Source of the DNA: Fimbriimonas ginsengisoli Gsoil 348
Lineage (GTDB): Bacteria; Armatimonadota; Fimbriimonadia; Fimbriimonadales; Fimbriimonadaceae
Reading direction: 5' to 3'
Assembly: GCA_945881865.1 (NCBI GenBank)
Contig: CAMCVK010000002.1
Coordinates: 248,001-312,000, forward strand
Length of the DNA stretch: 64,000 nt
Position numbers and translations under genes: made by a program. Below, piece by piece: positions 13,291-18,594 of the stretch (position 1 is its first letter; each line of letters starts with the position of its first letter). The notes beneath the pieces were generated by a model that worked only from the letters and a program-made list of their open reading frames with translations, had not been told where the DNA came from and searched no databases.

Positions 13291-14478
13291 ATGCCGGAAC
13301 CTTCGCTGCCGCCGTTGCGAATCGCGATCTTTTCCGACAGCGCGTTTCCCATCCTAAATGGGGTCAGCGTGAGCGTTGACACCCTCATCAACGAGCTGCG
13401 TAACCAGGGACACAGCGTCCACCTTTACGCCACTTCGTTCCCCGGCAATCGAGACACGGACCCGAATACGTTTCGCTTTCCCTCTATGGAATTTCCCTTT
13501 TGGCGGGGCTACCCATTGCTCATCCCGCCGGTCTATCCCATGCTTGCTCGCTTTCGAAAGCACACCTACGACATCATCCACACCCACACGCCGTTCCTCG
13601 TGGGAATGGTTGGGTTGCGCTGGGCCGAGTCGCACGAGATCCCGATCGTCTCGACCTACCACACGCTCTACGATCGGTACGCGCACTACGTCAAGATGCT
13701 TCCGCGCCGCTACGTTCGGTTTCGCATCGCCAAGCACACCAACTTTTATTACAACCGTGTGAACCACGTCATCACCCCGACCGACATTTCGAAGAAGTGG
13801 CTTCTTCGGCACTCGGTCACCTCGGAAGTCACCATCATTCCCACCGGCAGCCCACGTCCCCCGAGCTTGAACCGCCACACGATTCGCGCCGAACTCGGGA
13901 TTGCCCCGGAGCAGCGCATCCTGCTCTATGTCGGCCGACTCGCGCGTGAGAAGAACCTCGAAGTGCTTATCGAGGCGGCCAGCATGGCGATGAAACGGGA
14001 TCCTGCCGTTCAACTTTGGATGGTCGGAGACGGACCGTACCGGCCTGAATGCCTGGAACTGATTCGGGAGTTGGGGATCGGCGACCGCACCCGGCTGATC
14101 GGCTTTGTGCCGCGTGCCGAAGTGGACCGGTACTATTCGGCGGCTGATCTCTTCTTGTTCACCAGCATCTCAGAGACGCAGGGGCTGGTGGTGCAAGAGG
14201 CCATGCAGCTAGGTCTTCCGGCGGTGGTTGCTTCCGGCGGAGGGGCCGGCGAGGCCGTCCGGCACTTGGAGAACGGAATGTTGGTTAAGAATGACGTGCA
14301 AGAATTGGCCGAAGCTGTCCATACCGTGCTCTCCGACCCGGAACAATATGCGCGCCTTTCGGCAAACGCCCGCCTAACCGGCCTGGCTGCCGGAGTCGGG
14401 CCGATGGCTTCGGCCGTGACTTCGGTCTATCGTGGCGTCGTGGCATCTTACGCAGCCGACCTGGCGGGGAATCGATGA
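13291..14478 (+). CDS. Glycosyltransferase family 4 protein
   Basis: 395 residues with the two-domain GT-B layout. The N-terminal domain starts LRIAIFSDSAFPILNGVSVS and contains DIIHTHTPFLVGMVG; the C-terminal donor-binding domain has LLYVGRLAREKNLEVLIEAA and the E-x7-E region SISETQGLVVQEAMQLGLP. It resembles diacylglycerol glucosyltransferases and other lipid-linked GT4 enzymes, so a role in glycolipid or envelope glycan synthesis is likely but the substrate is open. The last four bases overlap the start of a polytopic membrane protein. Confidence 0.9.
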   Translation: MPEPSLPPLRIAIFSDSAFPILNGVSVSVDTLINELRNQGHSVHLYATSFPGNRDTDPNTFRFPSMEFPFWRGYPLLIPPVYPMLARFRKHTYDIIHTHTPFLVGMVGLRWAESHEIPIVSTYHTLYDRYAHYVKMLPRRYVRFRIAKHTNFYYNRVNHVITPTDISKKWLLRHSVTSEVTIIPTGSPRPPSLNRHTIRAELGIAPEQRILLYVGRLAREKNLEVLIEAASMAMKRDPAVQLWMVGDGPYRPECLELIRELGIGDRTRLIGFVPRAEVDRYYSAADLFLFTSISETQGLVVQEAMQLGLPAVVASGGGAGEAVRHLENGMLVKNDVQELAEAVHTVLSDPEQYARLSANARLTGLAAGVGPMASAVTSVYRGVVASYAADLAGNR

Positions 14479-15536
14479 CTTCCGCCGCTGTCGCCCGGGG
14501 TACGGCCCCAAAGCCCGCTAGCGCCAATCCTTTCCAAACAAAAGGTGCCCGGGATGCGGGAATTCTGTTGCTCTTCATGACCGTCGTGCGGGTGTTGATC
14601 CCGTTTGTGCCGGTTCCGATGCAGTTCGCCGGGGTCGCGAATGTCTTCGCGACCTTTGTTTTCATGATCTGCCCGGTCGTGGCACTTGTTCGGGCCGCCG
14701 AGCCGGTATGGAGTCGGGCTTACGCCTGGGCGTTCCTTCTTGGTGGCGTGGCTATTCAAGTTGGCCTGACCTTTGCCGCGTTCCAACTGAAAGCGGGTGC
14801 CGCAAGCGTAGTGCTGTCGGCGCTTGCCCAGGCCGGCTTGATGTTCTGGTGCTTTGGGGTCGGCGCACTCCTAAGCTCGATCTTAAGCGATAAAAACCTT
14901 CTGGTTCCGCTGGCCATCTTTTTGGCCGTTTTCGACATCTGGCTCGTCTTTTCGCCGGATGGCTTCGTGAACCAGGCACAGCGATCCGGTTCGCAGGTGT
15001 TGGCGACCGTGGCCTACACATTGCCGAAAGTGGAGTCGGCGGTGGCCACCGTACGGACCGCCCAGGCAACGGCGCAAGCCTATGTTGGCCCCGCTGATCT
15101 GCTTTTCCTCTCGATGTTCTTCACCGCGCTCTCACGCTTTGGGATGCGACTCGCGCAGACCGCAAGGGTGATGGCTCCGGTGTTGCTCGGCTACCTTGTC
15201 ATCGTTTTAGCCTTTCCCACCGTGTCGATCGGGCCGATCAGCCTTGGGGCTCTGCCCGCCCTCGTGCCTATTGGCATCGTGGTGCTCATCGTGAATTGGC
15301 CCGAGTTTCGTCTTACGGCGGACGAAAAGCGGAGTTCGCTAGTTCTGCTGATTCTTGCGGTTGGCCTGCTGCTTTGGCGCTTCAGCGTGAACGCGCAAGC
15401 GCCGCCGACTGCGCCTTCGAGGCTACCGAGCGCCCAAGAACGGCCAGGACCTCCATCGACGCCTGCGCCAGGCGACCCAGGTCTACCGAAGTCGGCAGTC
15501 CCTGCCGATCCAAAAAGTACACCAGGTCCTCGGTAG
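14475..15536 (+). CDS. Polytopic membrane protein with Pro-rich tail
   Basis: 353 residues. About eight hydrophobic helices span residues 25-310 (for example DAGILLLFMTVVRVLIPFVP and VPIGIVVLIVNW). No known transporter or enzyme family is recognised. The last 45 residues are Pro/Ala/Ser-rich and are encoded on the strand opposite to the end of the HMG-CoA lyase gene, giving a 155-base antisense overlap; the membrane domain ends at about the point where the overlap begins. It is coupled to the GT4 gene by an ATGA overlap, so an envelope-related role is plausible. Confidence 0.8.
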   Translation: MTSAAVARGTAPKPASANPFQTKGARDAGILLLFMTVVRVLIPFVPVPMQFAGVANVFATFVFMICPVVALVRAAEPVWSRAYAWAFLLGGVAIQVGLTFAAFQLKAGAASVVLSALAQAGLMFWCFGVGALLSSILSDKNLLVPLAIFLAVFDIWLVFSPDGFVNQAQRSGSQVLATVAYTLPKVESAVATVRTAQATAQAYVGPADLLFLSMFFTALSRFGMRLAQTARVMAPVLLGYLVIVLAFPTVSIGPISLGALPALVPIGIVVLIVNWPEFRLTADEKRSSLVLLILAVGLLLWRFSVNAQAPPTAPSRLPSAQERPGPPSTPAPGDPGLPKSAVPADPKSTPGPR

Positions 15537-16266
15537 CCAGGTTCCCCGCCGCGCCGGGTGCAAACGGACAGCCGCCAAGCCCAGCCGCGCTGGCATCAAA
15601 ACCGGCCCAATCACCCGCTTCCAGGCAGGCCGCCACGTTGGCGATGGCCGTGCCGTTCGTATCGTGAAAGTGCCAAAAAATTTGATCCGGCTGGCCGCCA
15701 AAGCTCGCCTTGAGTTCGCGAATAAGGGCCCTCACTTCGTTTGGCGTCGCAACGCCGATCGTATCCCCCAGTGAGATTTCGGTGCATCCGAGTGCAATCA
15801 GCTGATTGGCGACTTCGACGACTTTGCCCGGCGCGATGCGGCCCTCAAATGGACACTCGAACGCGGTGCTGACATAACCTCGAACTCGCTTTAGCCCCGG
15901 CGACCGGGTGAATTCGGCGAAATGGGTCAGGCTTTCCGCGATGGTGGCGTTGATGTTGCGCTGAACGAAGGTCTCGCTGGCGGCGGTGAAAACGGCGATC
16001 TCCTCCACACCGACCGCTTGCGCCCGAGCCCAACCACGCGCGTTTGGCACCAGCGCCAGGAAGCGAGGACCCTTCGGAAGCTGCGGCCAAAGCGAATCGG
16101 CGTCGGCCATTTGCGGAACCCGCGTTGGCGAAACGAAGCTGGCGACTTCCAATTCGGTGAGCCCGGCCGCAATCAGATTTTCGATGAAGCGAAGCTTCAC
16201 CTCGGTCGGAACCGGCACCGCCTCGTTCTGCAGGCCGTCTCGAAGGCCAACCTCGACAATTCTCAT
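15382..16266 (-). CDS. mvaB: Hydroxymethylglutaryl-CoA lyase
   Basis: 294 residues. It splits HMG-CoA into acetyl-CoA and acetoacetate, the last step of leucine degradation. The DRE-TIM motif region is VEVGLRDGLQNE at the N-terminus, the metal-binding His pair is in WHFHDTNGTAIANV, and the family signature with the catalytic Cys is GLGGCPFAPGAAGN. Length is normal. It is the last gene of a four-gene minus-strand operon in which each pair overlaps by four bases (ATGA). Its 3' end overlaps the convergent membrane protein gene by 155 bases. Confidence 0.94.
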   Translation of the reverse strand: MRIVEVGLRDGLQNEAVPVPTEVKLRFIENLIAAGLTELEVASFVSPTRVPQMADADSLWPQLPKGPRFLALVPNARGWARAQAVGVEEIAVFTAASETFVQRNINATIAESLTHFAEFTRSPGLKRVRGYVSTAFECPFEGRIAPGKVVEVANQLIALGCTEISLGDTIGVATPNEVRALIRELKASFGGQPDQIFWHFHDTNGTAIANVAACLEAGDWAGFDASAAGLGGCPFAPGAAGNLATEDLVYFLDRQGLPTSVDLGRLAQASMEVLAVLGRSVASKAQSAALARSR

Positions 16267-16694
16267 CCTGGTTCGACTATTGCTAAGGTCGCGCCTTCTG
16301 CCACGGCTTCTGCTACACTCACCGGCAACTTGGTCACCTTCCCGGCGAAGGGTGCCTCAAACGGCATCTGGGTCTTCATCGCTTCCAGCACCACCACGAC
16401 AAACCCGGCCTCGACCGAATCGCCCACGGTCGCGTGCACCGCGACGACGGTGCCGGGCATCGGCGCGGTGAGCTCCCCGCTCTTTGCCGAAGCCGCCTGG
16501 CGGCGGGCACTTGCCCGCTCCCGGACCTCGTAGGTGTGGCCTCGATACGAGATCAGAACATCCTCACCCACTCGAAGCACCGCCGCCGAGTGCGTTCCGG
16601 AATCGCTGTGAACCTGCCACAAAGGTCCGTCTTGCGCGAGCGTCGCAGATGAGGATTCAAGTTCCGTTTCGACTCCGTTGACCCAAAGCTTCAT
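16263..16694 (-). CDS. Biotin carboxyl carrier domain protein
   Basis: 143 residues. The C-terminal half is a biotinyl domain with the biotinylated Lys107 in VLEAMKTQMPFEAP; the N-terminal half (1-70) is a small beta domain like the BT domain of 3-methylcrotonyl/propionyl-CoA carboxylase alpha subunits. In most bacteria these two parts are fused to biotin carboxylase; here they stand alone, so the carboxylase subunits must be encoded elsewhere. Beside HMG-CoA lyase it probably serves methylcrotonyl-CoA carboxylase in leucine breakdown. It overlaps both neighbours by four bases. Confidence 0.9.
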   Translation of the reverse strand: MKLWVNGVETELESSSATLAQDGPLWQVHSDSGTHSAAVLRVGEDVLISYRGHTYEVRERASARRQAASAKSGELTAPMPGTVVAVHATVGDSVEAGFVVVVLEAMKTQMPFEAPFAGKVTKLPVSVAEAVAEGATLAIVEPG

Positions 16695-17413
16695 GCCGAC
16701 CTCCGATTCGCGCGATAGGCGCGTGCTGCATCGACAAAAGCTGCAAAGAGCCGCTGGGTGGCCTCATCCTCCGGAGTTCGCTCCGGGTGCCATTGCACGG
16801 CAACGAGCCACGGGCGATCGGTCGCTTCAATCGCTTCGCTCGTGCCGTCTGGATGGGTCGCAACGACCTTCAACTCCGCGCCAGGCACATCTACGGACTG
16901 ATGGTGATAGCTCTTGCCTCGAACGTGCGGCTGGCCAACAATCGTGCCAAACAGGCTGTCGGGGGCTACTTCCGCCTCCTGGAGCTCGCCCGAGCCGTGC
17001 TGCTCTCCTCCGACGCGGTCCGGGGTGTGTTGCTCCAGGGTTCCGCCCCGAAGCACGTTGAGGACCTGGCAGCCATAGCAAATGCCGAGGATTGGGGCGT
17101 CCGCCGGAAAAGCCGCGAAAAGCTTCTGCTCCATCGCGAACCGAGCCGGCACTTGAAGCTCATTCTTTTCGTGGTTGTCCTGGCCGTAATTGGCCGCATC
17201 AAGGTCCAGTCCACCGGGAATGAGCCACCCGTCGATGATTTCCGACACGACCACGGGGTCGGTATCTGGCGTTACCAAAATTGGGATTCCTCCGGCCGCT
17301 GCCACCCGCTGGGCGTAATTCGCGTTCAGGCGGTAGATCATTCCGCCGGTCCGCGGATCGGTGGAATGTCGAGGATCGACCGTGATCCCGATGATGGGGC
17401 CAGATTCTGTCAT
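16691..17413 (-). CDS. Class I glutamine amidotransferase-like hydrolase, peptidase C26
   Basis: 240 residues, gamma-glutamyl-GABA hydrolase (PuuD-like) family. The nucleophile elbow is GICYGCQVLN (Cys112) and the His/Glu of the triad are in VQWHPERTPED (His209, Glu211). The oxyanion region IPGGLDL is present. The family hydrolyses gamma-glutamyl amides; the substrate here is unknown. Its position inside an operon for an E2 acyltransferase, a biotin carrier and HMG-CoA lyase, overlapping both neighbours by four bases, is unusual for PuuD-like enzymes. Confidence 0.9.
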   Translation of the reverse strand: MTESGPIIGITVDPRHSTDPRTGGMIYRLNANYAQRVAAAGGIPILVTPDTDPVVVSEIIDGWLIPGGLDLDAANYGQDNHEKNELQVPARFAMEQKLFAAFPADAPILGICYGCQVLNVLRGGTLEQHTPDRVGGEQHGSGELQEAEVAPDSLFGTIVGQPHVRGKSYHHQSVDVPGAELKVVATHPDGTSEAIEATDRPWLVAVQWHPERTPEDEATQRLFAAFVDAARAYRANRRSA

Positions 17414-18594
17414 GGGGCTGGAATCCAGGAGTCGACGTCTTCGGCGGCGGCTTTGATGGAATTCAAGAACTCGGCCGCCCCGACTCCGTTGAGCACGCGA
17501 TGATCGAACGTAAGGGCGAGGTTGGCGAATCGGGCCGCTTTCAGGCCATCCGCCAGTGGGTCGAGGGCAATATAGACCTCACCGATGAACAGGGTCGCCA
17601 CCATCGGCGGGACCACGACGGGGGTCGCATCGCGTAGGCCAAAGCCTTGCATGTTCGTGAGAGAGATCGTCACCTTTTCGTTGACCTGGTCCACGCCGGT
17701 TCGTGCTTGTTCGATGCGCTCCCGCGTTCGCGCGGCGAAAGTCGGCCAGTCTAGCTTGTTCGCCGACTCAACGACCGCCAGCACGAGTTCATCTTCGGGT
17801 AGCGCAACCGCAATCCCTAGACTCGCGGCATCAAACGTCCGCAGCGTCGCGTCGCCAACCAGTGTGCTTCGGAAATTAGGGTGGGTTTCGAGCGCCTGCG
17901 CAACGAGATAGGCAAACATCGTGAAGAGGCTGGGCTGAAAATCGACGCGGCTCGCCTTGTATTCAGCGCGTCGAGCTTCGAGCGCCTCCCACCGGCAAGC
18001 TACCGACATCGTTCCGGGGACCACGATCTGGTTTCCGCGAACAAGCCGCGAAGCGAGGAGTCGCTGCTTGCTGGAAAGTGGGCGGTCCGAGTACGTCGGC
18101 TGGGTCGCGGAGGCATTGCGATAGGCGTCCACGTCCGAAGGCAGCATCTTTGAACCGGCGAACGGAATGTGGTTCAGCTCGTCGTCGGTGATGCCGAGAT
18201 CCTTCGCGTAGGCCTTGGTTTTGGGCGGAATGAGCGCGTTTCGCGAGCCGACGGTGGCCGCAGTTGCTTCTTCCGCGGCGGCTTCCGGTGCCGGTTCTGC
18301 GGGGTTTTCCGGTTCGGCGGCGACGTCCGCACCTACCTCGACGCGGGCGACTTCCGCGCCGATCGGCAGAATGTCATCCGGCTGCGCGAGCCACTCGATC
18401 AGGACGCCTTCGGTCGGCGACTCGACATCCATAACGGCCTTGTCCGTCTCCATCTGATAAATGGGTTCGTCGCGACGGATCTTGTCGCCGGGCTGCTTAA
18501 GCACCGCGACGAGCCTTGCTTCTTGAAGCCCTTCACCAATTTGCGGAATTCGAACGGATACGACTGCCATTTGCTCACTCGCGGCCACCGGCAT
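17410..18594 (-). CDS. Dihydrolipoamide acyltransferase (E2) of a 2-oxoacid dehydrogenase
   Basis: 394 residues; an alternative start is the ATG at 18570 (MAVVSVRIPQIGEG). A lipoyl domain (about 10-87) carries the lipoylated Lys52 in METDKAVMDVES. A Pro/Ala/Glu linker (about 90-112) leads to a peripheral-subunit-binding domain (about 115-160), then the catalytic domain. The active-site motif reads FDHRVLNGVGA: His365 is present but the usual Asp of HxxxDG is Asn369. It is the first gene of the operon with HMG-CoA lyase, which suggests a branched-chain oxoacid complex. No E1 or E3 gene is in the window. Confidence 0.9.
   Translation of the reverse strand: MPVAASEQMAVVSVRIPQIGEGLQEARLVAVLKQPGDKIRRDEPIYQMETDKAVMDVESPTEGVLIEWLAQPDDILPIGAEVARVEVGADVAAEPENPAEPAPEAAAEEATAATVGSRNALIPPKTKAYAKDLGITDDELNHIPFAGSKMLPSDVDAYRNASATQPTYSDRPLSSKQRLLASRLVRGNQIVVPGTMSVACRWEALEARRAEYKASRVDFQPSLFTMFAYLVAQALETHPNFRSTLVGDATLRTFDAASLGIAVALPEDELVLAVVESANKLDWPTFAARTRERIEQARTGVDQVNEKVTISLTNMQGFGLRDATPVVVPPMVATLFIGEVYIALDPLADGLKAARFANLALTFDHRVLNGVGAAEFLNSIKAAAEDVDSWIPAP

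Follow-up and report, generated by a model that had tools for sequence, protein, structure and literature searches.

In Fimbriimonas ginsengisoli, a four-gene operon probably combines a branched-chain acyltransferase, a leucine module and a general gamma-glutamyl hydrolase

Why would one operon hold the acyltransferase (E2) of a 2-oxoacid dehydrogenase complex, a hydrolase of the Peptidase_C26 family (C26 below), a stand-alone biotin carrier and 3-hydroxy-3-methylglutaryl-CoA (HMG-CoA) lyase, with E1, biotin carboxylase and carboxyltransferase all absent from it? The operon belongs to F. ginsengisoli Gsoil 348, a member of the Armatimonadota, a phylum with few cultured members, and lies in the window analysed here, a stretch of 64,000 nucleotides (contig C2:248001-312000) from a genome of 3.23 Mb that is 98% complete. 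The four-gene operon with overlapping junctions proposed in a preliminary description is real: the open reading frames are all on the minus strand, each of the three junctions overlaps by exactly 4 bases, and Pfam and NCBIfam calls agree with the domain identities given there. We think it likely that the operon unites an acyltransferase of the branched-chain 2-oxoacid dehydrogenase (BCKDH) type with a leucine module, a general gamma-glutamyl hydrolase sharing the operon with them. Its genes, from upstream to downstream, are:

17410..18594, minus strand: E2 acyltransferase of a 2-oxoacid dehydrogenase complex, probably BCKDH-type (PF00364 and PF00198; one lipoyl domain with lipoyl Lys52; DHRVLNG with His365 and Asn369)
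16691..17413, minus strand: PuuD/SpuA-like class-I gamma-glutamyl hydrolase (Peptidase_C26, PF07722, 150 bits; Cys112-His209-Glu211; AlphaFold model with Z 32 to PuuD)
16263..16694, minus strand: biotin carrier, predicted subunit of a split 3-methylcrotonyl-CoA carboxylase (MCC) (Pfam Biotin_lipoyl; biotinyl Lys107 in EAMKTQ; match to MCC alpha)
15382..16266, minus strand: HMG-CoA lyase, LiuE-like (Pfam HMGL-like; NF004283 above cut-off; match to 2ftp)

This gene order is not due to chance. Linkage was counted in 32 of 36 same-family relatives, fetched with context of up to about 19 kb (L104-L115 were left out as partial duplicates of other genomes in the set): E2 lies directly upstream of C26 in 29 loci, the carrier directly downstream in 30, and HMG-CoA lyase within 2.4 kb in 26. 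The other four genomes were judged from match coordinates alone, three of them (G007, G009, G016) fitting the E2-C26 linkage and the last (G032) lying at a contig end. The same four-gene operon is carried by a relative assembled as a single contig (G008, L043). The operon is a lineage-specific assembly of known parts, and its four genes are presumably co-transcribed; a promoter and terminator scan gave nothing exceeding shuffles. A second ATG at 18570 could serve as an alternative start for E2.

The carrier and the lyase point to leucine. HMG-CoA lyase scores 337.2 bits against a cut-off of 246 (NCBIfam NF004283) and matches a solved HMG-CoA lyase (2ftp) at E 7e-74. The carrier, in which the EAMK of the biotin motif EAMKTQ is preserved in 32/32 aligned rows, has as its best PDB sequence match residues 537-648 of the MCC alpha chain of Pseudomonas aeruginosa (3u9s). 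The genome has two biotin carboxylases, and the one at 394 kb on contig C2 matches residues 9-500 of the same chain; the two proteins tile MCC alpha and are therefore best read as a split MCC. Besides a two-gene AccD/AccA-like pair, the genome encodes one carboxyltransferase of the MCC or propionyl-CoA carboxylase type, at 15 kb on contig C1, whose best matches are MCC-type beta chains (4q0g, labelled AccD1, and 3u9r, labelled MCC beta). Judging from these matches, carrier, C2 biotin carboxylase and C1 carboxyltransferase would physically assemble into a three-piece MCC. The C2 biotin carboxylase gene also overlaps a crotonase-family gene (L088 9856-10629) that we term LiuC-like, its second-best model, below cut-off, being gamma-carboxygeranoyl-CoA hydratase. 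In a genome of a related family (G042, L093), MCC beta, LiuC-like, biotin carboxylase, carrier and HMG-CoA lyase genes lie within 11 kb without C26, the carrier sitting between biotin carboxylase and lyase. By eye, that cluster also includes a gene resembling a short-chain fatty acid transporter (L093 6348-7742), which separates MCC beta from the LiuC-like gene. With the Liu/MCC leucine genes of Pseudomonas and others (PDB matches 3u9s, 3u9r and 2ftp) the genome shares an MCC alpha-type biotin carboxylase plus carrier, MCC beta, the LiuC-like hydratase and HMG-CoA lyase. It differs in that MCC alpha is split into two genes, the set is spread over three places, and E2 and C26 are in the same operon as carrier and lyase.

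Genes of leucine use can be separated from mere operon companions by asking which are absent together and which are retained. Of 61 genomes, six have no HMG-CoA lyase orthologue at E below 1e-60 (G011, G027, G038, G039, G050, G059), and eight have no MCC beta orthologue at E below 1e-100 (G011, G027, G038, G039, G048, G049, G050, G057; two of these eight, G048 and G057, are less than 90% complete). Both are present in 52 genomes, both absent in five and one absent in four (Fisher p 5e-5, uncorrected for kinship). Two of the double-absent genomes, G011 and G027, belong to the source family, and their loci lack the carrier as well. Given this joint absence, carrier, lyase and MCC beta form a leucine module. 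C26 and E2 are retained in all five genomes without both lyase and MCC beta, and are independent of that module.

Where, then, is the partner of E2? The lipoyl domain (50.4 bits) and acyltransferase domain (111.7 bits) of E2 both exceed their Pfam cut-offs, and the genome encodes three E1 sets and three E2s. One E1, an alpha-beta fusion, is encoded on contig C10. Its orthologue directly adjoins the E2 orthologue in G037, G038, G039, G050 and G051 and lies within about 2 kb of it in G042, G043 and G044 (on the opposite strand in G044), making 8/24 genomes of four other families (coordinates; some loci read). The alpha part of the fused E1 best matches a Thermus 2-oxo acid dehydrogenase (1um9), by about 50 bits, and then BCKDH chains. 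This similarity and the genomic context suggest that fused E1 and operon E2 probably make a BCKDH-type pair. In its single lipoyl domain, its acyltransferase domain and the E1 genes that adjoin its orthologues in other families, the operon E2 resembles the E2 of branched-chain 2-oxoacid dehydrogenases, but its partner E1 is a fusion encoded elsewhere and its active site departs from the usual form. E2 active sites usually carry the motif HxxxDG, with Asp. The operon E2 has HRVLNG instead: all 41 orthologue rows read DHRxxNG, with Asn for Asp and the His kept in 41/41 (residues 363-370 of the operon E2), while the two other E2s of the genome carry DHRxxDG. Two lipoyl motifs occur in 13/41 rows. 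In one relative, G021, E2 is on another contig, and the C26-carrier pair has the fused E1 close by on the opposite strand (L061 11665-13680).

The E1, biotin carboxylase and carboxyltransferase that the preliminary description listed as absent are thus missing from the operon and present in the genome, on C10, C2 and C1. The variant route that it had considered, a leucine pathway working without these subunits, is therefore ruled out, or at least not needed. The split-MCC partners and the liu cluster of the related family lend further weight to its assignment of E2, carrier and lyase to leucine and branched-chain catabolism.

C26 calls for a different account. It scores 150.3 bits against a Pfam cut-off of 20.5, and Cys112, His209 and Glu211 are kept in 37/37 aligned rows (L046, where the C26 reading frame was uncalled, is not in the alignment). 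The solved structures nearest to its AlphaFold model (mean confidence, pLDDT, 96.7) are PuuD (Z 32.0), SpuA (31.3) and lin1909 (30.7), followed by others at 24 and below. With the PuuD/SpuA gamma-glutamyl amide hydrolases it shares the fold, the Cys-His-Glu residues and the closest solved structures; it differs from them in sequence (about 26% identity; 59.3 bits against the NCBIfam PuuD equivalog cut-off of 266), and in its neighbours. No PuuA-type gamma-glutamylputrescine synthetase was found as a partner for it, since the genome has a single glutamine synthetase gene (one PF00120 match, not typed further), and a Puu-type polyamine route is accordingly unsupported. The closest named relatives of C26 come from Fimbriimonadaceae/Fimbriimonadia and Armatimonadetes metagenome-assembled genomes; a search of plasmid proteins returned only distant homologues, under 60% identity. 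C26 is matched in 59/61 genomes, the two without a match being 85% and 84% complete. Its linkage to E2 and the carrier is nevertheless limited to the source family: in the 22 other-family genomes with C26, no E2 or HMG-CoA lyase lies closer than about 12 kb (coordinates, many of them from drafts; five loci read). C26 is probably a general gamma-glutamyl hydrolase whose job is separate from the leucine route. The idea that the operon ties CoA-thioester metabolism to glutamyl conjugates finds no support: all five relatives without lyase and MCC beta retain C26, and in the order's other families the gene is encoded at another place in the genome. It had also been suggested that the place of C26 would be incidental if relatives carried it elsewhere: the placement is indeed lineage-specific, but to call it plainly incidental would go too far, as the linkage survives rearrangement within the family and six Planctomycetota loci have a C26 homologue near HMG-CoA lyase.

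We propose that, through this operon, components of branched-chain amino acid oxidation are expressed together. In the established pathway, leucine is transaminated and converted to isovaleryl-CoA, and MCC, a hydratase and HMG-CoA lyase then act in turn. Here, leucine would first be transaminated and passed to the complex of fused E1 and operon E2, which, if its substrate is as supposed, would make branched acyl-CoAs, isovaleryl-CoA among them. An isovaleryl-CoA dehydrogenase step, assumed from the known route, would come next, followed by the three-piece MCC and the LiuC-like hydratase; HMG-CoA lyase would perform the final step to acetoacetate and acetyl-CoA. C26 would most likely act on gamma-glutamyl amides or peptides, freeing glutamate in a general scavenging reaction, and might sit in the operon since scavenging and leucine oxidation are both useful during peptide feeding, not as a step of the leucine route. 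A seemingly broken pathway would thus be explained by subunits that are dispersed rather than missing, with MCC alpha split. An operon for peptide feeding fits the growth of F. ginsengisoli, which uses peptone and casamino acids as sole carbon sources and does not use mono- or disaccharides (PMC4072686).

Several observations weigh against this explanation. The top match of the beta part of the fused E1 is labelled pyruvate dehydrogenase (PDH), NCBIfam E2 models match the operon E2 far below their cut-offs, and, with three E1 sets and three E2s in the genome, the substrate of the operon E2 and fused E1 is not fixed by sequence. As for C26, in five family loci that lack both flanking markers (L042, L051, L059, L061, L067), the E2-C26 and C26-carrier pairs are each intact in four; and outside the Armatimonadota, HMG-CoA lyase lies within 6 kb of a C26 homologue in 6/65 loci (L118-L183 without L138), all of them in Planctomycetota. 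Neither the survival of the linkage through rearrangement nor this recurrence is predicted if C26 has a purely separate job.

The alternative that survives best, although we hold it to be a good deal less probable than the BCKDH assignment, is that E2 and fused E1 serve another 2-oxoacid, pyruvate or 2-oxoglutarate, so that central metabolism and leucine catabolism would be combined in one operon. Relatives that have no leucine module still have both genes; however, BCKDH is also used for valine and isoleucine, and retention without the leucine module is therefore expected. A PF00676 search, expected to catch a SucA-type 2-oxoglutarate E1, gave three E1s in all, none of them long, and the other non-PDH set (C9 E1, C12 E2) could be the BCKDH instead. 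Against this, other loci of the genome encode PDH-like proteins, an E2 and a separate E1 alpha whose 392.4 bits narrowly miss the cut-off of 393.85, and the match to 1um9 ahead of BCKDH chains favours a branched-chain substrate.

A second alternative, which we regard as improbable, gives C26 an active role in leucine supply: by cleaving gamma-glutamyl-leucine and similar gamma-glutamyl peptides, it would release the amino acid for oxidation by the E2 complex and the MCC/lyase module. The intact active-site residues and the tight linkage conserved in the family would suit such a role, as would the neighbours seen in Planctomycetota. There, 25 genomes were chosen for already having a C26 locus; an HMG-CoA lyase is matched at E 1e-50 or better in 20/25, and it is linked to C26 in 6/20. 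On the C26 tree, however, the six linked loci need two changes, with five of the loci in one clade of six, and they are therefore weighed as about one extra event; since several genes were tested in many lineages, the recurrence may be chance. Moreover, C26 is retained in 5/5 genomes without the module and unlinked in 22/22 other-family genomes that have it. We give slightly less credence still to an evolutionary version, in which a PuuD-like hydrolase was recruited into leucine catabolism, perhaps twice (in Fimbriimonadaceae and in Phycisphaerae), to open gamma-glutamyl-leucine-type peptides or amides, the product then being used by a branched-chain dehydrogenase whose E2 has an active site of the Asn type. 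That C26 is a folate poly-gamma-glutamate hydrolase is the least plausible reading: its retention is nearly universal, and GcvT/YgfZ-like folate-binding proteins occur near the homologue in 4/4 lyase-linked Planctomycetota loci scanned, but the predicted structure resembles PuuD and SpuA far more than it does the vertebrate gamma-glutamyl hydrolase, at Z 21.7.

In four Planctomycetota loci (L180, L175, L172, L158) the run C26 homologue, GcvT/YgfZ-like gene, HMG-CoA lyase is conserved. The neighbours of C26 homologues outside the Armatimonadota (10/83 scanned) include class II tRNA synthetase, GcvT-like, GCS2, fumarase-like and acyltransferase proteins, with no common functional theme.

Literature searches on C26 with MCC or folate, PuuD substrates, fused E1, branched-chain dehydrogenase in Armatimonadota, leucine in Fimbriimonas and the HXXXDG motif with dihydrolipoyl acyltransferase turned up no account of this operon; those on C26 with MCC and on the HXXXDG motif returned no papers. 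The substrate of C26 and the Asn-type active site of E2 are small, directly testable questions.

Two minor features accompany the locus. At its downstream end, HMG-CoA lyase overlaps a convergent membrane-protein gene (14475-15536, plus strand) tail to tail by 155 bases (window 15382-15536), and such an overlap, of 65-395 bases, recurs in 25/25 loci of the family in which the two genes occur together; it may be that the antisense tail is passive. In some relatives a family of small proteins (about 130 residues; no Pfam match in the two members scanned) is encoded between carrier and HMG-CoA lyase (L044 10034-10432, L050 8971-9366, L065 8206-8595, L075 8162-8551, and also L062, L066 and L068). 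A member of this family still adjoins C26 in G011, which has lost both carrier and lyase at this locus.

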